From Pseudomonadota bacterium (GTDB lineage: Bacteria > Pseudomonadota > Gammaproteobacteria > Burkholderiales > Methylophilaceae), in NCBI GenBank assembly GCA_029556915.1, contig JAKQIT010000074.1, forward strand, positions 62,001 through 126,000: DNA of 64,000 bases. The letters run 5' to 3'. How positions within the stretch are numbered: position 1 is the first letter of the stretch; every line of letters starts with the position of its first letter. The notes beneath the pieces are model-generated. The model was not told where the DNA came from. It did not search any database and saw only the letters and a list, made by a program, of their open reading frames with translations. Made by a program: the position numbers and the translations under genes. Positions 532 through 58,989 of this stretch are shown piece after piece.

Positions 532-621
532 AAAAACTTTCTCACTAAATGGCGCGCCAAATTGGCGGTAAAACTAACTTAATATTGCACATTAAAACTC
601 TAAAAATATAGCTAAAAAACA

Positions 622-694
622 CCCGAGCATTTTTTATGCCTCTGGAAGCCGCATGCAGACTGGCTTGCAGAGGTGCTGTTATGAAGATGTCATT
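622..694 (-). repeat. Hairpin repeat copy 1
   Basis: Copy of the dispersed roughly 70-bp family, read on the minus strand: CTCGGG-type end at 622-627, arms 639-650 and 662-673 (one mismatch), 11-nt loop, and an AAATGACATCTTCAT-like end near 694. It lies between beta-RFAP synthase and mtdB, which are in tandem on the minus strand. Confidence 0.85.
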
Positions 695-5168: not shown

Positions 5169-5236
5169 CATCTTCCATCATGATGCTCTGCAGGCCAGTA
5201 TCCATGCGCCTTACAGAGCATTGTTTTTTGCTCGAC
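5169..5236 (+). repeat. Hairpin repeat copy 2
   Basis: Arms 5185-5196 (GCTCTGCAGGCC) and 5208-5219 (GCCTTACAGAGC) around the loop AGTATCCATGC, with a CTCGAC-type right end. It sits between the convergent genes ppsR and torF, just before the intrinsic terminator. Confidence 0.8.
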
Positions 5237-7776: not shown

Positions 7777-7846
7777 CGAGAGATTTTTTATGCTCTGAAA
7801 CCCGCATAGAATAAGGCTTGCAGAGGTGCTACTGGGAAGATGTGTT
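7777..7846 (-). repeat. Hairpin repeat copy 3
   Basis: Minus-oriented copy. The CTCG-type end is near 7777, the loop GCATAGAATA at 7803-7812 and the arm GGCTTGCAGAGG at 7814-7825; the left arm is degenerate. It lies between puuC and gabT, in tandem. Confidence 0.75.
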
Positions 7847-9361: not shown

Positions 9362-9398
9362 GATAAAAAAACCTTTACATTTTTAACGCATTTTATCC

Positions 9399-9467
9399 AA
9401 CATCATGATAGGTGCTCTGGAAGCCAGTATCCATGCGGCTTGCAGGGCATCAAATTTTTCTCGGGGG
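9399..9467 (+). repeat. Hairpin repeat copy 4
   Basis: Plus-oriented copy with arms 9414-9425 and 9437-9448 (two mismatches), loop AGTATCCATGC and a TCTCGGGGG right end. It lies between gabD and puuC, which are in tandem on the minus strand. Confidence 0.85.
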
Positions 9468-9488
9468 TTTTCTGCACTATTGTTAACC

Positions 9489-12770: not shown

Positions 12771-13892
12771 TTATTGTGCTAGTACAACCATCGCCAAATC
12801 GTTCCAATGCGCGTAAGCTCTATCACCCCATGTAAGTCCACAGCTCAAATCACGCGTATTGTTAAGCTCTTGCGCTTTAATCACCTTGCCACTGTCAAGT
12901 TTAAGGTGATAAGTCGTATGCGCTCCAAAATAGACAATTTCGATGACTTCACCTTCACACCAGTTATATTCACCCTTGGGTTTTTTATCAGACAAAATAA
13001 TCTTTTCTGGACGTAACGCAACACCAACAACCATACCCGAGTGCCCGCTCACGCCATGCCCCACATAATGTATACATTCAGGACACCGCACGGTCACGTG
13101 ATCGGCCTCATCCTCTTCAATTACACCATCAAATAAATTCACATTGCCAATAAAATCAGCCACTTTGCGACTATTAGGCATTTCATACACTGCGTCTGGC
13201 GCACCTACTTGTAAAAAATAACCTTCTGACATCACCGCTATACGCGATGCCATAGTCATGGCTTCTTCTTGGTCATGTGTGACAAGTACACAAGTCACGC
13301 CAACCTCTTCAATAATATTGACCAACTCTAGTTGCGTCGTTTCACGTAACTTTTTATCAAGAGCACCCAATGGCTCATCTAGGAGAAGCAATTGAGGACG
13401 CTTTGCCAGACTGCGCACCAAAGCAACACGTTGTTGCTGTCCACCTGAAAGTTGATGAGGCTTACGTTGTGCGTACTTGTTAAGTTGCGCAAGATTCAAC
13501 ATTTTTTCTACGCGTTCTGCGATTTGATCTTTAGGCATGCCATCGCGCTTTAGGCCAAATGCAATGTTTTCCCATACGCTCAAATGTGGGAACAACGCGT
13601 AAGACTGAAACATCATGTTAATAGGACGTTGGTATGGCGGCAAATTGGTAATATCTTGTCCTGCTAAGTAAATTTTCCCTTTAGTAGGGGTTTCAAAGCC
13701 CGCCATCATGCGTAAAAGCGTTGATTTTCCACAACCTGAACCGCCAAGAAGCGCAAATATTTCACCTTTATTCACGGTCAATGAAACATCATCTACCGCT
13801 TTTACTGTGCCGTCGTAAATTTTAGTTACATTTTCTACACGCAATAAAACTTCTTCTGCAGACTGATTGACTTCTTTAGGTGCGGTTGCCAT
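12771..13892 (-). CDS. potG: Polyamine ABC transporter ATP-binding protein, PotG type
   Basis: Cytoplasmic ATPase that drives polyamine uptake, 373 residues. Walker A is GGSGCGKST at 50-58, the ABC signature LSGGQ at 148-152 and Walker B LLLLDEP at about 168-174. A C-terminal TOBE-like domain contains VALRPEKI. AAGGG lies seven bases before the ATG. A 10-bp stem-loop separates it from the binding-protein gene upstream. Confidence 0.95.
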   Translation of the reverse strand: MATAPKEVNQSAEEVLLRVENVTKIYDGTVKAVDDVSLTVNKGEIFALLGGSGCGKSTLLRMMAGFETPTKGKIYLAGQDITNLPPYQRPINMMFQSYALFPHLSVWENIAFGLKRDGMPKDQIAERVEKMLNLAQLNKYAQRKPHQLSGGQQQRVALVRSLAKRPQLLLLDEPLGALDKKLRETTQLELVNIIEEVGVTCVLVTHDQEEAMTMASRIAVMSEGYFLQVGAPDAVYEMPNSRKVADFIGNVNLFDGVIEEDEADHVTVRCPECIHYVGHGVSGHSGMVVGVALRPEKIILSDKKPKGEYNWCEGEVIEIVYFGAHTTYHLKLDSGKVIKAQELNNTRDLSCGLTWGDRAYAHWNDLAMVVLAQ

Positions 13893-13933
13893 AAAAAACC
13901 CTTAATGAGTGGATGCCCAGTGAAGAATGCTAT

Positions 13934-13960
13934 GTGTGAGGCGAGTTTTGCGCCTCACAC
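13934..13960 (-). other. Intercistronic stem-loop between potF and potG
   Basis: Perfect 10-bp inverted repeat, GTGTGAGGCG and CGCCTCACAC, with a 7-nt loop, 12 bases after the potF stop codon. There is no T-run on the transcribed strand. Hairpins in this position of importer operons often protect the binding-protein message and let it exceed that of the membrane subunits; that role is inferred here. Confidence 0.6.
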
Positions 13961-13971
13961 TTTTAAACAAA

Positions 13972-15201
13972 CTAAACGCCAGATTTGAATTTCGTATATA
14001 AACGCGTCAAAGTGCGTTTAGCTTCTTGGCTCTCCACACCAGGGGGTACCATTTTTGCTAAATCCTCATCAGATAAATATACAGATTTATTGTTTTTAAT
14101 TTCATCATCAACAAATTCAGTTGCTGCTCTGTTTGGATTAGCATAGGTGACCTCATTGGTAATGGCTGCAGCTACTTTTGGTTGCATCACATAGTTCATA
14201 AATATATGTGCATTATTAGGGTGTTTAGCATCGGCTGGAATCGCCATGGTATCCATAAAAATCAAGCCACCCGTTTTTGGTACAAGCGCTACAATTTTTT
14301 GCTCTGATTTATTCTCAATAGAGCGTTTACGCGCCAAATTAAAATCACCAGCCCAACCATAAGCCACACAAACATTGCCCCCAGCTAAATCTTCAATTTG
14401 ACCGCCAGAATTGAATTTTTTAATATCAGGTCGCACTTTCATCAGCATCTCAAACGCAGCTTGGTAGTCTTCATTTGAGGCTGTAAATACTGGTTTACCC
14501 ATATAATGCAATGCTGCTTGAAACACATCAGTGGGAGTGTCCAACATGGTAATACCACACGATTTTAATTTATTAGTATATGTTGGATTAAATATCAAAT
14601 CCCAAGCATTGTCAGGCATAGGGGTGTCGCCAAGCGCAGCTTTGACTTTATCTTCGTTAATGCCAACTGTGTTATAGCTCCACATCCAGTCAATCAAATA
14701 CTGGTTACCAGGGTCTACACCTTCCATTTGCTTGAGAATGCCTGTATCTAGGTTTTTCCAGTTGGGGAGTTTTGTCTTATCTAACTTTTGAAATAATCCA
14801 CCATCTAACTGCTGTTTAGCCCAATTTGAAGATGGCACAACGATGTCATAACCCGTGTTTTTAGCAATTAATTTTGCATGCAAAATCTCATTGCTATCAA
14901 ACACATCATAGCGTACTTTGATGCCCGTTTCTTTTTCAAAATTTTCGATAGTATCTGGCGCTATATAATCAGACCAGTTGTAAATATTAAGAATCTTTTC
15001 TTCATCTGAAGCATTTGCTGATGGCGTTTGGCTAGATGCACTGCTTGATGCAACATTAGCGTCTGAAGTTGAAGCAGGTTTATCTTCAGCTGTTTTTTTA
15101 CCAGAGTCACCGCATGAAGCAGTCACCAAAGTCATACCAATAATCAATAATGCATTTAGCACACTTTTATTCAACAAACTTATATTGAATGAATTGTTCA
15201 T
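13972..15201 (-). CDS. potF: Polyamine ABC transporter substrate-binding lipoprotein, PotF type
   Basis: Captures polyamine for the PotGHI importer. The protein has 409 residues, with a lipoprotein signal ending in LVTASC (Cys30 as the lipidation site) and a Ser/Ala-rich tether to about residue 67. The binding-protein body starts at LNIYNWSDYIAPDTIENFEK, typical of PotD/PotF. GGAG lies seven bases before the ATG. It is the first gene of potF-potG-potH-potI. A lipid anchor is unusual for Enterobacteria-type PotF, which is periplasmic. Putrescine versus spermidine specificity cannot be told. Confidence 0.92.
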   Translation of the reverse strand: MNNSFNISLLNKSVLNALLIIGMTLVTASCGDSGKKTAEDKPASTSDANVASSSASSQTPSANASDEEKILNIYNWSDYIAPDTIENFEKETGIKVRYDVFDSNEILHAKLIAKNTGYDIVVPSSNWAKQQLDGGLFQKLDKTKLPNWKNLDTGILKQMEGVDPGNQYLIDWMWSYNTVGINEDKVKAALGDTPMPDNAWDLIFNPTYTNKLKSCGITMLDTPTDVFQAALHYMGKPVFTASNEDYQAAFEMLMKVRPDIKKFNSGGQIEDLAGGNVCVAYGWAGDFNLARKRSIENKSEQKIVALVPKTGGLIFMDTMAIPADAKHPNNAHIFMNYVMQPKVAAAITNEVTYANPNRAATEFVDDEIKNNKSVYLSDEDLAKMVPPGVESQEAKRTLTRLYTKFKSGV

Positions 15202-19208: not shown

Positions 19209-19625
19209 TGGTTACTTCAAGTCTCTTATTTTATTTAGTTGGGTTGATACTTTCCACAAGCACATACTACGCTTGTAGCAACATTTCTAGCAAGCAGTTT
19301 AATACGTTTATTTTTAAATATTCTGTTTATAATTGTTGATTAAAAAAAACCTAAAATTAACCTTATTTTCACATCAAATCATTTTGATGCTCTGGAAGCC
19401 GCATAGAATAAGGCTTGCAGAGGCGAAATTTTTTCTCGGGCGATTTTCGTGATTTTATTTATCATTTTTTATAGTTAAAAATCATGTAAACGCTGAATAA
19501 GTGAGCGAGTGGGATGAAGAGTGAGGCGCACGGAACGCAGAAGCCGAGATAGTACCGTTGTACAGCGAGGCTAAGAGTACCGCGCAACAAAGCTATTCGC
19601 CCGCGCAGGCACTGATTCAGCGTTT
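19209..19625. other. Gap between puuB and puuD (no gene, two repeat structures)
   Basis: This 417-bp gap contains hairpin repeat copy 5, a separate long imperfect inverted repeat, and the upstream region of puuD. Short reading frames across the inverted repeat look incidental. Confidence 0.75.
19371..19444 (+). repeat. Hairpin repeat copy 5
   Basis: ATCAAATCATTTTGATG-type left flank and TTTCTCGGG right flank on the plus strand. Arms lie at 19389-19400 and 19412-19423 with loop GCATAGAATA. The loop and arm asymmetry are reversed relative to the flanks when compared with most copies. Confidence 0.85.
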
Positions 19626-24378: not shown

Positions 24379-24423
24379 ACAAAAACCACTTTAAAACCCA
24401 TTAAATCAACCCGTTTTAACACA

Positions 24424-24489
24424 AAATCATTTCACCACCTCTGCAAGCCGATTGCAGACTGGCTTACAGAGGTATAAATTTCTCTCGGA
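24424..24489 (+). repeat. Hairpin repeat copy 6
   Basis: ATCATTTCACCA left flank, arms 24438-24449 and 24461-24472, loop GATTGCAGACT (reversed relative to the flanks), and a TCTCTCGGA right end. It lies between dadA and the immunity-like gene, which are in tandem on the minus strand. Confidence 0.85.
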
Positions 24490-24542
24490 TAGCATTGAGT
24501 TGATATAACTAAAAAGAATAAACCATAAAAATACTTTGGTAA

Positions 24543-33390: not shown

Positions 33391-33408
33391 AACAGGATGT
33401 TTTTATCA

Positions 33409-33477
33409 CATATCATTTGACCACCTCTGGAAGCCAGTATCTATGCGGCTTCCAGAGGCATAAAAAATCCTCGGGGA
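33409..33477 (+). repeat. Hairpin repeat copy 7
   Basis: Best-preserved hairpin: arms 33424-33435 and 33447-33458 are a perfect 12-bp inverted repeat around AGTATCTATGC. The left flank is ATCATTTGACCA and the right end CCTCGGGG. It lies between mnmC and the TPR glycosyltransferase gene, in tandem. Confidence 0.9.
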
Positions 33478-33542
33478 GAATTTTCAAAATTTGGAGTGAA
33501 AATTTCATGCGCGTTTTAAGTGTGTTGCGCTAAAATCACGCC

Positions 33543-35387
33543 ATGCAAACACCTGAAAATCAACTGAAACATTATCAACACATTTTATTGCGCAACCCCA
33601 AAGATTTGGCCGCGCAAATTGAATGTGGTAATTTATGTGTTGAATTAGGCCGATTTGAAGAAGCCGCTGGTTATTTTCGACGTTTGGTACGCATCCTTAA
33701 AACAAACTTAAACGTGCGCGATGCTTTATGCTACGCGCTGCAAGCACTAGGTAATGAGTCGCACGCATTAGGCAACTTTGCCATGGCCGAAGCGTGCTTT
33801 AGCGAGGCGCTGGCGTATGAACCCAACAATGCAGCGTATTTGTACAATTTAGGCAATGCCTTACGCGAACTGGGCAAACCCAAAGAGGCCGCCTTGCATT
33901 ACCAAAAAGCGCTCACCATCACACCCAATGATGCGGATATTCATAACAATCTAGGTAACGTGCAGCGCGAATTGGGCGCCTTGGATTTAGCCATTACCAG
34001 TTATCAAAAAGCTCTGTCGCTTAACCCTACGCTCTTTCACGCCAAAGTGCATTTGGTGCATCAAAAACAGCATATTTGCGATTGGGCGGGGTTAGATGAC
34101 GATATTACGCAAATTCGGCATTGGGTAAAAACGATGCCAAGCGCGCAAATTTCACCGTTTGCTTTCCTCGCCATGCCGGGCACCACGGCGGAAGAGCAAA
34201 AACAATGTGCAACAAACTGGGTGCAAAATCGTTACGCCTCACTCATTAAACAAGCGCAACAACTTAATTTTCAATACAAAAAAAATCATCAAAAAATCAG
34301 AATTGCTTATTTATCAGCAGATTTTCGTTTGCATCCACTGGCATTTTTAATTACTGAACTCATAGAGTTACACGATAGAAATCAGTTTGAAGTTTTTGCA
34401 TTTTCATATGGGGTCAATGACCAAAGTAGTGCGCGAGCAAGACTAGAAAAAGCATTTGACCAATTTATTGATATTCGTCAACTATCTGACCTAGATGCCG
34501 CAAAAAAGATTAACGCCTGCGAAATTGACATTTTGGTAGATTTAACTGGCTTTACACAAACCAGCCGCACTGGCATTGCGGCTTTGTGCCCCGCCCCCAT
34601 TAATGTCAATTGGCTAGGCTTTGCCGGCACGATGGGCAACCTGCCTAGTGGTAAGCCATTATTTGACTACCTGCTGACAGACCATTTTATTACACCACCA
34701 GAGTCTGCTCTGCACTACGCTGAGCAATTAGTCAACTTGCCTTGCTATCAACCCAATGACCGCAATCGGCCAATTGGCATAACGCCAAGCCGGGCTGAAT
34801 GCGGCTTGCCAGAGCATGCATTTGTATTTTGCTGTTTTAATCAAACGTTTAAAATTACCCCAGAGGTTTTTAGGGTATGGATGCAGATTTTACAAGCAAC
34901 ACCTAACAGTGTGTTGTGGTTACTTGATTGTAACGTTTGGGCTAAACAAAATTTATTACGCGAAGCAGAACAATTGGAGGTGAGTAAAGAAAGATTAGTG
35001 TTTGCCCCACGTGTTTCGATAGCCGACCATTTAGCTCGCCACAAACACGCTGATTTATTTTTAGATACTGCGCCATATAACGCGCACACCACCTGTAGTG
35101 ACGCTTTATGGATGGGCTTACCTGTGCTCACCTGCGCAGGCGAAACATTTGCATCGCGCGTGGCTGGCAGTTTGCTTCAATCGGTAGCATTGCCAGAGTT
35201 AATTACTTTCACGCTTGATGACTACAAATGCAAAGCGATTACACTCGCGGCAGAGCCACAAAAGCTAGATGCCATTCGCAAAAAATTGCAGACAACTAAA
35301 AATAATGCGCATCTTTTTAACACTGTTGATTTTGCCAAATCACTTGAGTCAAGCTATCAACGGATGTTAAAACAACATTTAAGTTAA
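33543..35387 (+). CDS. TPR-containing GT41 (O-GlcNAc-transferase-like) glycosyltransferase
   Basis: 614 residues. Tetratricopeptide repeats occupy about residues 15-175, with NNAAYLYNLGNALRELGKP and NDADIHNNLGNVQRELGA as the clearest. From about 255 the SPINDLY/OGT catalytic region follows: IAYLSADFRLHPLAFLI with the conserved histidine, then INVNWLGFAGTMG, and near the C-terminus DLFLDTAPYNAHTTCSDALWMG, the nucleotide-sugar-binding segment. Bacterial members modify proteins such as flagellin or pilins, or remain uncharacterised. The next gene encodes PilU, so a pilus-linked acceptor is possible but unproven. Confidence 0.85.
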   Translation: MQTPENQLKHYQHILLRNPKDLAAQIECGNLCVELGRFEEAAGYFRRLVRILKTNLNVRDALCYALQALGNESHALGNFAMAEACFSEALAYEPNNAAYLYNLGNALRELGKPKEAALHYQKALTITPNDADIHNNLGNVQRELGALDLAITSYQKALSLNPTLFHAKVHLVHQKQHICDWAGLDDDITQIRHWVKTMPSAQISPFAFLAMPGTTAEEQKQCATNWVQNRYASLIKQAQQLNFQYKKNHQKIRIAYLSADFRLHPLAFLITELIELHDRNQFEVFAFSYGVNDQSSARARLEKAFDQFIDIRQLSDLDAAKKINACEIDILVDLTGFTQTSRTGIAALCPAPINVNWLGFAGTMGNLPSGKPLFDYLLTDHFITPPESALHYAEQLVNLPCYQPNDRNRPIGITPSRAECGLPEHAFVFCCFNQTFKITPEVFRVWMQILQATPNSVLWLLDCNVWAKQNLLREAEQLEVSKERLVFAPRVSIADHLARHKHADLFLDTAPYNAHTTCSDALWMGLPVLTCAGETFASRVAGSLLQSVALPELITFTLDDYKCKAITLAAEPQKLDAIRKKLQTTKNNAHLFNTVDFAKSLESSYQRMLKQHLS

Positions 35388-38798: not shown

Positions 38799-38867
38799 AT
38801 CAAATCATTTCACCTCCTCTGTAAGCCAGTATCTATGCGGCTTCCAGAGGCATAAAAATCGCTCGGA
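38799..38867 (+). repeat. Hairpin repeat copy 8
   Basis: CATCAAATCATTTCACCTC left flank, arms 38816-38827 and 38839-38850, loop AGTATCTATGC and a GCTCGG right end. It lies between the convergent genes dapC and miaA. The left flank is identical to copy 10 for over 20 bases. Confidence 0.9.
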
Positions 38868-38872
38868 TGAAA

Positions 38873-39814
38873 TCAAGCGTTCAAAAACCGCTTTATTTTA
38901 TCCAAAATTAGCGCATTCAACTGTGGATTTAAGCAGTCAATTTCGACCACATCATCCATCCCACGCAACCATGTAAGTTGACGTTTTGCCAGTTGGCGCG
39001 TGGCAAAAATGCCTCTATCACGCAACTCAGTCAAATCATAATCGCCGCGCATATACTCTAAAGTTTGCCTGTAGCCTACGCAGCGCATCGAAGTCGATTC
39101 TGGCGTTAGGGTTGGGTATTTTGCAATCAGCGCATTCACCTCATCCACAAAACCCGCCGCCAGCATTTGGTCAAAACGCATGGCTATGCGCTCGTGCAGC
39201 ACTTTGCGCTCGCTCGGCACTAAAGCAATTTTAAGCAAATTGTAGGGCAACGTTTCTCTTGTTTGCTTGGCAATCAGCGTTGACATCGCCTCACCCGTAA
39301 TTTCAAATACCTCTAAAGCGCGTTGAATGCGCTGCACATCGTTTGGCTCTAAGCGCGCGGCTGTCACAGGGTCAACCAAAGCAAGTTTTTCATGCATGGC
39401 TGGCCAGCCAGTCAGTGCAGCGCGCGCATCTAACCTTGCGCGAATTTCAGGGTTAGCCTCTGGCAAACCGCTTAAGCCTTCTTGCAAGGCTTTAAAATAC
39501 AGCATGGTGCCACCCACCAACAGCGGCACTTTTCCACGCGCGGTGATTTCTGCCATTAGGCTCAGTGCATCATTTCTAAAGTTTGCAGCAGAATACGCCT
39601 GCGTCGGTAGGATTAAATCAATTAAATGATGCGGTGCCTTCGCAAGCATGGCTGAGTCAGGCTTAGCGGTACCGATATTCATGTCTTTAAACACCAAAGC
39701 TGAATCCACACTGATAATTTCAACGGGGAGTTTTGAATACAACTCGACCGCTGCGCCTGTTTTGCCGCTGGCGGTTGGGCCCATTAAAAAGATGGCAGAG
39801 GGAAGTTGCTTCAT
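38873..39814 (-). CDS. miaA: tRNA dimethylallyltransferase
   Basis: Adds the dimethylallyl group to A37 of tRNAs reading UNN codons. The protein has 313 residues. The P-loop is IFLMGPTASGKTGAAVEL (about 8-25), then ISVDSALVFKDMNIGTAKP, and PHHLIDLILP. It lies seven bases after the peroxiredoxin gene, in a mutL-peroxiredoxin-miaA order. The classical pair mutL-miaA is thus kept, with one gene inserted. Confidence 0.96.
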   Translation of the reverse strand: MKQLPSAIFLMGPTASGKTGAAVELYSKLPVEIISVDSALVFKDMNIGTAKPDSAMLAKAPHHLIDLILPTQAYSAANFRNDALSLMAEITARGKVPLLVGGTMLYFKALQEGLSGLPEANPEIRARLDARAALTGWPAMHEKLALVDPVTAARLEPNDVQRIQRALEVFEITGEAMSTLIAKQTRETLPYNLLKIALVPSERKVLHERIAMRFDQMLAAGFVDEVNALIAKYPTLTPESTSMRCVGYRQTLEYMRGDYDLTELRDRGIFATRQLAKRQLTWLRGMDDVVEIDCLNPQLNALILDKIKRFLNA

Positions 39815-40389: not shown

Positions 40390-42249
40390 TCACTTACCCC
40401 GCATAAACATCTTATCCAAATCGCTCATGCCCACCTGAAACCACGTAGGGCGACCATGGTTACATTGTCCACTGCGTTCAGTGGCTTCCATGTCGCGCAG
40501 TAGCGCGTTCATTTCTGGGATGGTTAAACTGCGATTGGCACGCACGGCGGCATGGCAGGCCATGGTACCCAGCAATTCGTTGCGTCGCTCGGTGAGCGCA
40601 CGGCTAGCACCAAATTCGCGTAAATCTCGCAGCACATCGCGCGCTAGGGTGACGGCATCGGCTTGTTGTAGCATCACTGGCACGCCGCGCACAGCCAACG
40701 TGGTGGGCGAAATAATGGCAATATCAAAACCAAGTTGCTGAAAAATATTATCTTGGCTCGTCAAAGCCTCACTTACCGCCGCTACTTCTAGTTTATCCGC
40801 ATGAAAGCTGATGGGTAGCAATAAAGGCTGCATGGCAACCGCTTGAGTATCCAACGCGTTTTTGAGCTTTTCATACATAATACGCTCGTGCGCAGCGTGC
40901 ATATCCACCACCACCAAACCTTGCGCATTTTGCGCCAGCACGTAAATGCCGTGAATTTGCGCCACAGCAAAACCTAAAGGAAATTCGCCATTATTTTCAT
41001 TTAAATTTACACCATTTTCTGCCCGAGAAAAATTTGCACCGCTGGCAGCCCCATCCAGACTGGCTTGCAGAGGAGGTGAAATGATGTTGTGCGAATTTTC
41101 GCTTTGAAAACTGTTTTTTTGCCCGAATAAAGTTTGATAAAAATCGGTGGGCTGCTGCGCAGATAATTGGATTTGCGATTGGTATGTGGGGTATGGCGTG
41201 TTCGCATTTTTATCCGCAAAAGGATTATGCGCAGCCTGCCCTGCCGTGACCGCATTTGAGTTACCAGTTGGCGCTGCTAACGCTTTGTGAAGCGAGTGAA
41301 AAATAAAGCGGTGAATGGCTTGGCTGTCTCTAAAACGCACTTCTGTTTTGGCGGGGTGTACGTTCACATCCACCAGCGTTGGGTCGCACTCTAAAAACAG
41401 CACAAACGCAGGGTGGCGGTCATGGTGCAGCACGTCTTGATACGCTTGGCGAATCGCGTGGGCAATCAGTTTATCGCGCACAAAACGCCCATTTACATAC
41501 ACATACTGCGTATCGCGACTATGGCGATTAAACGTCGGTTTGGCCGCCCTGCCCCATAATCGCAAGCCTGCGGCAGACTCATCTAAGCTCAGTGATTCTG
41601 CAAAAAACTCATCGCCTAACACTTCTGCAAAGCGCCGCTCTGGCGCGCCAACAGCATAGCGACTTAACACGCGGCCATTATGCTGCAATTGAAATGCTAC
41701 ATCTGGACGCGATAGCGCAATGCGTTCAAACGCATCTTCGCAATGGCTAAATTCAGTTGCCTCAGTTTTTAAAAATTTGCGCCGCGCGGGGGTGTTAAAG
41801 TATAAATCGTTGACTTCAACAATTGTGCCGGCATCCAGTGCAGTAGGCTCAATGGGCGAAATTTCACTGCCATTAGAAGCAATGCGCCACGCGTGCTTGG
41901 TGTTTTGCTCGCGGCTTAAAATTTGCGCACGCGAAATGGAAGCGATACTGGCTAAAGCCTCACCCCTAAACCCTAAACTCGCCACCGATTCTAAATCTTC
42001 CAGCGAGGCAATTTTGCTGGTGGCGTGGCGTGTCAAAGCCAGTGCTAAGTCATCTTGCGCAATGCCTTTGCCGTTATCTGCCACGCGCAGTTGCTTAACA
42101 CCCCCTTGCAAAAGCGCCACTGCAATATCGGTGCTACCTGCATCTAGGCTATTTTCTAGCAACTCTTTTAACGCTGAAGCTGGACGTTCCACCACTTCGC
42201 CTGCGGCGATTTGGCTAATGAGTTGGTCTGGAAGTAAGTGAATGCGCAT
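40390..42249 (-). CDS. mutL: DNA mismatch repair protein MutL, with a hairpin repeat in its coding sequence
   Basis: 619-residue GHKL ATPase coordinating mismatch repair. The start is ATG 42249 (MRIHLLPDQLISQIAAGEVV), 19 codons inside the longest frame. ATP-site motifs are LLENSLDAG, VADNGKGI and SLGFRGEALASI. The C-terminal domain holds DMHAAHERIMYE, matching the DQHA(X)2E(X)4E endonuclease motif of MutL proteins that nick DNA, then ACHAAVRA and QCNHGRPT. Residues 389-409 of the linker are encoded by a dispersed hairpin repeat. The 5' end overlaps that of the helicase on the other strand by eight bases. Confidence 0.96.
   Translation of the reverse strand: MRIHLLPDQLISQIAAGEVVERPASALKELLENSLDAGSTDIAVALLQGGVKQLRVADNGKGIAQDDLALALTRHATSKIASLEDLESVASLGFRGEALASIASISRAQILSREQNTKHAWRIASNGSEISPIEPTALDAGTIVEVNDLYFNTPARRKFLKTEATEFSHCEDAFERIALSRPDVAFQLQHNGRVLSRYAVGAPERRFAEVLGDEFFAESLSLDESAAGLRLWGRAAKPTFNRHSRDTQYVYVNGRFVRDKLIAHAIRQAYQDVLHHDRHPAFVLFLECDPTLVDVNVHPAKTEVRFRDSQAIHRFIFHSLHKALAAPTGNSNAVTAGQAAHNPFADKNANTPYPTYQSQIQLSAQQPTDFYQTLFGQKNSFQSENSHNIISPPLQASLDGAASGANFSRAENGVNLNENNGEFPLGFAVAQIHGIYVLAQNAQGLVVVDMHAAHERIMYEKLKNALDTQAVAMQPLLLPISFHADKLEVAAVSEALTSQDNIFQQLGFDIAIISPTTLAVRGVPVMLQQADAVTLARDVLRDLREFGASRALTERRNELLGTMACHAAVRANRSLTIPEMNALLRDMEATERSGQCNHGRPTWFQVGMSDLDKMFMRGK
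41022..41085 (-). repeat. Hairpin repeat copy 9, in frame inside mutL
   Basis: Read on the minus strand it begins ATCATTTCACCTCCTCTG, continues through CAAGCCAGTCTGGATGG and ends TTTTTCTCGGG. All landmarks of the family are in order at full length. The right arm is degenerate, so the hairpin is weak. It encodes residues IISPPLQASL and onwards to NFSR in MutL. Confidence 0.85.
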
Positions 42250-48230: not shown

Positions 48231-48302
48231 CATCAAATCATTTCACCTCCTCTGCAAGCCAGTATCCATGCGGCTTACAGAGCGGTAAAAATCTCTCGGG
48301 AA
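48231..48302 (+). repeat. Hairpin repeat copy 10
   Basis: CATCAAATCATTTCACCTC left flank, arms 48249-48260 and 48272-48283, loop AGTATCCATGC and a TCTCTCGGG right end. It lies between the convergent genes queG and the ROK kinase. Confidence 0.9.
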
Positions 48303-50748: not shown

Positions 50749-50796
50749 GAAGTTTTCATTTCAAATTTGTATCGCTAAAAGCGAGAAAAAACCACA

Positions 50797-50862
50797 ACAT
50801 TATTTCACCCCTCTGGAAGCCGCATAGAATAAGGCTTGCAGAGGCATGAAAATTTCTCGGGC
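50797..50862 (+). repeat. Hairpin repeat copy 11
   Basis: TTATTTCACCCC left flank, arms 50810-50821 and 50833-50844, loop GCATAGAATA reversed relative to the flanks, and a TTTCTCGGG right end. It lies between the GH57 gene and malQ, in tandem on the minus strand. Confidence 0.88.
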
Positions 50863-50883
50863 GTTTTTTATAAGATAAATCGT

Positions 50884-58089: not shown

Positions 58090-58902
58090 ATGGCCAATTT
58101 TGAGCAGTATATTGTTAATCCTAAGAAATTTTCGCTCAATAATTTTAAAGCGAATGACAAAAGTGAGCGGAGCAAAACTAAAGCAGATGATGCACTTGAG
58201 TTAGCAAAGCTCGCTACTGAAATTAACGCATTACAAGATATTTTAAATGCCGAAGGCAAACGTAAAGTATTATTGGTATTGCAAGGCATGGATGCCAGTG
58301 GAAAAGATGGCACCGTGCGCCATGTGTTTAGTGAATGCGACCCGCTTGGTATTCGCCTCGCCAGTTTTAAAGCGCCGTCAAGTGATGAACTAGCGCATGA
58401 TTACTTATGGCGCGTACACAGCCAAGTCCCCAAAGCAGGCGAATTGGTCATTTTCAACCGTAGTCATTATGAAGACGTATTGATTGTAAAAGTGCACGAT
58501 TGGATTGATGATGCAGAATGTCAACGTCGCTACAAACAAATCAACGACTTTGAGCAACTGCTGACTGAAACGGGCACGGTTATCATTAAATGCTTTTTGC
58601 ACATTTCAAAAGAAGAGCAAAAAGCTAGGATGCAAGAACGTTTAAATGAACCAACCAAAACTTGGAAATTTAACCCAGATGATTTAAAAGAGCGCGCTTT
58701 ATGGCCAAAATATATGCAAGCTTATGAACAAGCCTTAAAAGCCACTTCAACAAAACATGCGCCTTGGTATGTGATTCCTGCCGACTCTAAAACCAACCGT
58801 AATTTGTTAATTTCTCGACTGTTACTCAGCGCACTCAAGAGTATGAAATTAGCTTATCCACCCGTGCCTGCAGAATACAAAACTATCGTTATTGAAGACT
58901 AA
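58090..58902 (+). CDS. ppk2: Polyphosphate kinase 2 family nucleotide phosphotransferase
   Basis: Cytoplasmic enzyme of 270 residues that phosphorylates nucleotides with polyphosphate. Walker A is LQGMDASGKDGTVRHV (about 58-73), Walker B-like FNRSHYEDVLI, and the lid ERLNEPTKTWKFNPDDLKER. The single-domain form resembles the PPK2-related class that can act on AMP and ADP; the precise class is uncertain. It starts nine bases after the pgi stop codon with no clear ribosome site, so it is probably co-expressed. Confidence 0.9.
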   Translation: MANFEQYIVNPKKFSLNNFKANDKSERSKTKADDALELAKLATEINALQDILNAEGKRKVLLVLQGMDASGKDGTVRHVFSECDPLGIRLASFKAPSSDELAHDYLWRVHSQVPKAGELVIFNRSHYEDVLIVKVHDWIDDAECQRRYKQINDFEQLLTETGTVIIKCFLHISKEEQKARMQERLNEPTKTWKFNPDDLKERALWPKYMQAYEQALKATSTKHAPWYVIPADSKTNRNLLISRLLLSALKSMKLAYPPVPAEYKTIVIED

Positions 58903-58968
58903 CTTCCCTTAAGCAGGGCTGGAAGCCTTATTTCATGCGGCTTCCAGAGGTGTTATTTTCTCTCGGCA
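58903..58968 (+). repeat. Hairpin repeat copy 12
   Basis: Arms about 58916-58927 (GGGCTGGAAGCC, degenerate) and 58939-58950 (GGCTTCCAGAGG), loop TTATTTCATGC and a TCTCTCGG right end. The left flank is poorly preserved. It lies between the convergent genes ppk2 and gltX. Confidence 0.75.
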
Positions 58969-58989
58969 GTTTTTTGGCTATAAATTTGA

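Follow-up and report, generated by a model that had tools for sequence, protein, structure and literature searches.

Intragenic repetitive extragenic palindromes (REPs) of the GTAG and CGTC super-families have been known since 2013, and many of them lie in ORFs for DNA synthesis or repair functions, including PolA, UvrABC and RecBCD (main-text passages of Di Nocera 2013, PMC3733652). Palindromes found in frame in unrelated genes, each with a recognisable peptide, were described earlier from Rickettsia as Rickettsia palindromic elements (RPEs) of about 150 bp (passages of PMC10969869). REP/REPIN sequences and their TnpAREP transposases are a third described system (passages of PMC8266576 and PMC8049555).

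The family described here shares features with each of these. Like the REPs in the passages of PMC3733652, its members are short palindromes that are mainly intergenic, with some wholly inside ORFs and with associated transposase genes, but they carry neither a GTAG nor a CGTC tag. The main text of that paper has no mention of Methylotenera or methylo-, and no frame rule, recurrent codon change or lineage-specific overwriting is reported in its main-text passages. As in the RPEs of PMC10969869, in-frame palindromes occur in unrelated genes, each with a recognisable peptide; however, the element is about 67 bp long, the genome has a REP-associated transposase gene, and most of the copies sampled (108 of 120) have no long open frame running through the core. 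The family would be RPE-like by effect only. Features shared with REP/REPIN and TnpAREP, as passages of PMC8266576 and PMC8049555 describe them, are palindromes in high copy number, a single NF047646 transposase gene and a repeat at the end of that gene, whereas the absence of the GTAG tetranucleotide from the repeat, and its conserved AACATC-like and CTCG flanks, set it apart.

Literature searches found no report joining Methylotenera with repetitive extragenic palindromes, and none joining mutL, repetitive extragenic palindromes and in-frame insertion. What looks new within the literature searched is the repeat family itself, its presence in MutL, the use of one frame with its codon, and an overwriting that differs by lineage. 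Methylotenera is a genus of free-living methylotrophs. In-frame palindromes are best known from Rickettsia; here there are hundreds of extragenic copies that can serve as a control, sister species and a clean gap in rlmD, which makes it testable whether the frame is set by insertion or by selection, how the repeat comes to be tamed as protein (the AGC codon), and whether coding sequence is still overwritten by mobile repeats long after they inserted.

The repeat in mutL and its family

The window, a stretch of 64,000 nucleotides from the genome under study (G000, judged to be a Methylotenera by the relatives of its MutL), contains 12 copies of the repeat including the one in mutL (Table 1). 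The other 11 fall between long ORFs, and an extra weak match at 34786-34816 (14.0 bits) was under the cut-off. No Rfam match above the gathering score was found in the 64-kb window.

Table 1. Repeat copies and associated features in the window.
Feature	Position	Strand	Score or remark
Copy outside long ORFs	615..690	-	nhmmer 72.4 bits
Intergenic copy	5170..5234	+	34.5 bits
Intergenic copy	7777..7843	-	43.5 bits
Intergenic copy	9397..9471	+	59.2 bits
Intergenic copy	19373..19447	+	52.8 bits
Intergenic copy	24421..24492	+	55.0 bits
Intergenic copy	33408..33482	+	72.8 bits
Intergenic copy	38799..38871	+	72.6 bits; just downstream of gene 38873-39814, presumably miaA
mutL (DNA mismatch repair protein MutL)	40390..42249	-	ORF with ATG at 42249; NCBIfam NF000949, 892.9 bits (cut-off 750)
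REP-like element within mutL, AACATC...CTCGGG	41022..41088	-	about residues 388-409; nhmmer 56.3 bits, E 7.9e-16
AGC (Ser) codon in mutL copy	41041..41043	-	Arg codon (AGA/AGG) in same frame in most other copies
Hairpin right arm in mutL copy, GGCTGCCAG	41042..41050	-	usual form in the family, GGCTTNCAG
Hairpin left arm in mutL copy, CTGCAAGCC	41062..41070	-	translated Leu-Gln-Ala
Intergenic copy	48232..48302	+	70.2 bits
Intergenic copy	50794..50868	+	61.7 bits
Intergenic copy	58900..58973	+	42.7 bits; overlaps the end of ORF 58090-58902 by 3 bases

The mutL copy (AACATCATTTCACCTCCTCTGCAAGCCAGTCTGGATGGGGCTGCCAGCGGTGCAAATTTTTCTCGGG, minus strand) is full-length at about 67 bp, in frame and wholly within the gene. 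The initial annotation had quoted ATCATTTCACCTCC, CTGCAAGCCAGTCTG and TTTCTCGGG from 41085-41022 on the minus strand, and had stated that the mutL frame crosses the element without a stop or frameshift at residues 389-409, in the linker. The quoted sequence and the open frame are as described, and the residues agree closely with the count from the ATG. The linker placement is borne out by solved MutL structures, which match residues 2-321 and 422-618 (first Met uncounted) and leave the element between the two parts. An AlphaFold model of MutL (20 sequences) was poor, with a mean pLDDT of 56.4 and about 30 in the repeat region; as much of the C-terminal domain was also low, the model lends weak support to this placement.

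A profile made from 24 other copies, with the mutL copy excluded, matches 41018-41090 at 56.3 bits (464 kb searched), and chance is excluded as the origin of the mutL copy by this score and its E value. Codon-shuffled versions of the mutL ORFs from this genome and its relatives, 1760 in all, reached a profile score of 14.0 at best. The 15-mer CTGCAAGCCAGTCTG has two exact matches in the window (656-670 and 41056-41070), and nine at up to 3 mismatches against 1.83 expected. The assembly is a draft of 165 contigs with an estimated contamination of 5.65%, but an assembly artefact, like chance similarity (E 8e-16), is a negligible explanation given that mutL is on a 498-kb contig and that the site is occupied in two other assemblies.

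Genome-wide, a symmetric palindrome pattern (up to 1 mismatch) gave 296 sites and a control gave 0, while an asymmetric hairpin pattern (up to 3 mismatches) gave 244 forward and 233 reverse matches, some sites possibly being counted twice. Any such palindromic site was present in 15 of the 52 genomes in a survey of the genus, and counts after G000 were highest in G058 (179), G057 (165) and G001 (40), with 19 or fewer in the others. The flanks are conserved: the left one is AACATC-like, and 98 of 111 copies have CTCG as the right one. Of these 111 copies, 2 have GTAG close to the hairpin on its left and 4 on its right; for CGTC the counts are 0 and 1. The element is named REP-like because these tags of described REPs are absent.

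A single Y1 transposase match was found in G000, a REP-associated tyrosine transposase (NF047646, 196.3 bits, cut-off 80), and this enzyme probably mobilises the repeat. A repeat (L166:14156-14231) overlies the 3′-end of the transposase gene (13690-14229) and supplies its last residues and TAG stop, in another frame than the embedded copies described below.

At L166:11867-11990 and L175:10011-10141, two repeat copies are interrupted by nearly the same segment of about 60 bases, which contains a palindrome of its own, AGTGCGTACGCACT. The split repeats form a composite element, and half-elements with the same junction are located at L162:8937, L168:14556 and L175:16377.

Copies embedded in genes

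A sample of 764 kb, or 23% of the genome, was made up of the window and 35 stretches of 20 kb each. It contains 121 places scoring at least 18 bits, the cut-off for a copy, and 120 of these have a recognisable core. An open frame of at least 220 codons, taken as a gene call, runs through the core in 12 and is lacking in the remaining 108. In three of the 12 the copy is no more than 34 codons past a stop, ahead of the probable start and in another frame; these are probably untranslated and were set aside, so that nine of the 120 copies are counted as inside genes. The hosts, named by family search, are MutL, PolA, PabB, RlmD, RsmE, RsxC, a ZIP transporter, a formylmethanofuran dehydrogenase subunit B-like (FhcB-like) protein, for which the match of 243.8 bits is below the cut-off of 327.8, and HemW, whose copy is at the N-terminus. 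The core claim of the initial annotation, that a mobile-looking repeat has become protein sequence in MutL, is supported, and MutL is one of several such hosts.

The first sub-sample (the window and the first stretches), picked before any list of embedded copies existed, has 67 copies with 6 embedded. The second, picked after a pattern search containing CAGCG, has 53 copies with 3 embedded; rsxC and rlmD had already been listed by that pattern and are therefore not blind finds. A tenth embedded copy, in an HldE-like frame of L297 (named by look only), was found by the pattern search but lies outside the sample. Two copies at gene ends, the one in the transposase gene and one in L158, were not counted.

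In rlmD the copy is a clean insertion as judged by alignment. The 27 extra residues in G000 RlmD are missing in 24 of 25 alignable relatives, including both sister species (rows L321, L323, L332 and L338 excluded), and in the solved RumA chain 1uwv, which we take to be that of E. coli. A repeat is also present at the same place in rlmD of G001, and is probably a separate event since its flanks imply the opposite orientation. In polA, a copy in the inter-domain linker, ahead of the Klenow part that starts at residue 330, was identified by eye in G000, G057, G058 and G024, and in altered form in G001, among 30 aligned sequences.

A second, unrelated repeat family occurs in frame in the same mutL and polA linkers in other species, with peptides like RPESFDKLRTGF or PEPFDQAQESPVE, presumably a common REP-derived peptide. 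It was seen in the mutL linkers of L005 (G007), L014 (G024) and L017 (G020), and in the polA linkers of G015, G061, G023, G007, G020, G046 and G060.

Reading frame and the AGC codon

All nine embedded copies are translated in the same frame of the core, frame 0, in which the left arm reads L/P-Q/E-A. Among 110 other copies, frame 0 of the bare core stays open less often (60% and 53% for the two strands) than the remaining four frames (78-98%). When 22 bases on each side are included, the values are 47% and 42% for frame 0 and 25-57% for the others. The odds of nine out of nine in frame 0 are 3e-6 for the core and 1e-4 with the flanks; for the first sub-sample, where all 6 are in frame 0, they are 2e-4 and 2e-3, respectively. 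With flanks, openness differs little between frame 0 and the others, so that the frame argument rests on the nine copies.

The embedded copies also differ from the others in one codon. CAG in the right arm is followed by CG in the gene sense, which gives AGC (Ser), in 8 of the 9 embedded copies but in only 4 of 222 other arms (Fisher p 2.5e-11, copies assumed independent). In the first sub-sample the corresponding counts are 5/6 and 1/122 arms (p 1e-7), or 4/5 when mutL is left out (p 2e-6). In frame 0, the arms of the other copies have the Arg codons AGA (151/222) and AGG (50/222). A count over 15 long ORFs of the window shows AGC to be used more than any other serine codon (15.1 per 1000), and AGA and AGG to be rare (2.4 and 1.3 per 1000). 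Exceptions to the AGC codon are the fhcB-like gene, where CG is on the antisense arm, and polA of G001, which retains CAGAGC; the copy in the ZIP gene has CG on both arms. The initial annotation had described the arm on one side as decayed. This holds in that the changes include the recurrent Ser codon, whereas lower hairpin stability is weaker evidence, the median for embedded and other copies being -13.3 and -17.9 kcal/mol with 6 flanking bases on each side (p 0.018) and -16.8 and -19.7 kcal/mol with 20 (p 0.11).

The orientation of the copies bears on the origin of the CG change. In pabB the copy clearly runs opposite to the gene, and the change is found on the arm that reads in gene sense. 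The polA and rsxC copies look reversed when judged by their nearest copies, polA also by its CCGAG-type flank, but the best stretch of the profile orients both with the gene. By profile orientation, CG also falls on the right arm of the repeat itself in 8 of 9 copies, so that the change may belong to the copies that insert rather than result from selection in the gene. On balance, the evidence leans towards a change that follows the gene rather than the element.

A coding sub-family that already had a CAGCG arm and moved between genes would account for the identical base change in 8 of 9 embedded copies, for its place on the repeat's right arm in the profile orientation, and for the likeness of some pairs of copies (zupT-like and rlmD 73%, pabB and rsxC 70%). 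This appears improbable, as embedded copies are on average hardly closer to each other than to the rest (mean ungapped identity 0.556 and 0.543) and form no separate group, and as the change in the reversed pabB copy follows the gene sense; the polA and rsxC copies also look reversed by their nearest copies, though the profile disagrees. Under selection in the gene, the surviving frame would be the one that yields small polar residues (LQASxxxAASSGA), and the Arg codon may have been changed to Ser through selection on the protein or its translation.

Frame-0 copies were also seen in other genomes of the genus (L273, L274, L278 and L151). They are C-terminal in a Gfo/Idh-type oxidoreductase of G066 and in a DAO-type oxidoreductase of G001, and lie within the G001 prephenate dehydrogenase and within a frame of 335 codons in G024 that has no name.

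The mutL site in related species

In a MutL tree calculated with the linker left out, G000 is sister to G057 and G058 (SH-aLRT 99). The initial annotation had expected a gap at the element in close relatives. None is present in these two species, the closest relatives found, and a copy of their own type occupies the site instead. In G000, G057 and G058 the repeat is at one place in mutL with one right junction, CTCGG followed by CAGAAAA or a near form. As both sisters carry the element at the same place, the insertion probably predates G000's species. Of the intergenic repeats in the stretch around mutL, the two at 33408 and 38799 are missing from the corresponding places in G058, and the second is missing from G057 as well.

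The reading that we regard as likely is that the mutL segment is a copy of the genome-wide REP-like family, probably moved by the transposase and inserted in frame into the MutL linker in an ancestor common to G000 and its two sisters. Alternatively, the mutL linker and a few other places may be hot or permissive, and each lineage may have gained its own repeat. Two insertions per site do occur, as rlmD of G000 and G001 has repeats at one place in opposite orientation. On the MutL tree the label for REP-like linkers requires 11 changes, at least 6 of them forced by well supported branches, though this label is a loose regex (24 rows, of which G191 is probably false) and the profile score is preferred. 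Different REPs have also been described near one recB site in two Xanthomonas species (a passage of Di Nocera 2013, PMC3733652). Nevertheless, the same orientation and a common junction are found at three genes in G000, G057 and G058, which inheritance explains more economically than re-insertion, and separate gains are considered rather unlikely while retaining some weight.

Beyond the sisters, the mutL site is occupied in some relatives and not in others. With rows L084 and L086 left out, 5 of 88 MutL rows (G000, G057, G058, G024 and G177) score above all 1760 shuffles, and G180, G174, G001, G052 and G055 have weaker linker matches at the same place (11.1-13.4 bits, the two best shuffles scoring 14.0). 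Many relatives, for example G042 and G013, have no repeat in mutL. Species around G012 and G063 have LQTNRDGLAGGA-like versions at the mutL site that match a repeat type found outside long open frames in G020. The AATAGGGACGGGC repeat type is real, as 7 of 7 elements in G020 outside mutL have no open frame longer than 70 codons. The initial annotation had named as contrary evidence the same residues, with codon-level divergence, in all relatives including species that lack the family. This was found in part: divergent versions of the segment do occur at the mutL site of species in which repeats are few or absent. Because they resemble the repeat type outside long open frames in G020, these are read as relics and not as counter-evidence. 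A guessed second repeat consensus with the loop AATAGGGACGGGGGTAA was absent from 187 genomes of the family at up to 3 mismatches.

The segment is most likely filler without function that the linker tolerates; notable are the manner in which it is kept harmless and its apparent rewriting. Recruitment for a MutL function, or for an RNA or DNA hairpin in the mutL message, would be consistent with its persistence in three species, with related versions at the mutL site in other genera of the family, and with the recurrent AGC. However, the segment is absent in many relatives, the hairpin is weaker in genes than elsewhere, and the occurrence of the same peptide in unrelated enzymes suits tolerance better than a MutL function, which makes recruitment very unlikely.

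Although the three species share one junction per gene, the repeat cores between the junctions differ. Of 29 bases, 10 differ between the mutL cores of G000 and either sister, 6-7 in pabB and 7-8 in polA. The nearest repeat in the copy's own lineage has 1-4 mismatches versus 3-6 across the split, and the own lineage is closer in 9 of 9 copies (mutL, polA and pabB in three species). G057 and G058 are not independent, and this measure does not separate them. The repeats compared were the first 24 listed for each of G057 and G058, whether between genes or not, and a much larger set of 111 for G000. The nucleotide identity of mutL between G000 and G058 is 73.8%, and the differences between orthologous cores (6-10/29) are near this ordinary divergence, so that the case for overwriting is carried by the likeness to own repeats. 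The most economical reading is a single old insertion in each of mutL, pabB and polA, the core of which was probably swapped for the genome's current type once the species had diverged, with the genome's own copies as the source and either gene conversion or a fresh insertion into the old repeat as the route. More tentatively, and with some doubt, we suggest that these segments of core genes (MutL, PolA and PabB) are under continuing concerted evolution with the mobile repeats, their cores being overwritten as the repeat type of the genome changes, within one tolerated frame and with one corrected codon. If this is true, a selfish family of DNA goes on rewriting stretches of DNA-repair enzymes.

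In 15 of the 88 MutL rows (for example L003, L010-L013 and L088), a peptide like QFASPVCYAxEF replaces the repeat at the linker place. An origin as a frame-shifted copy of the repeat seems unlikely, as the shared GCAAGCC falls in another frame. The peptide is scattered over the MutL tree, with at least 4 forced changes.
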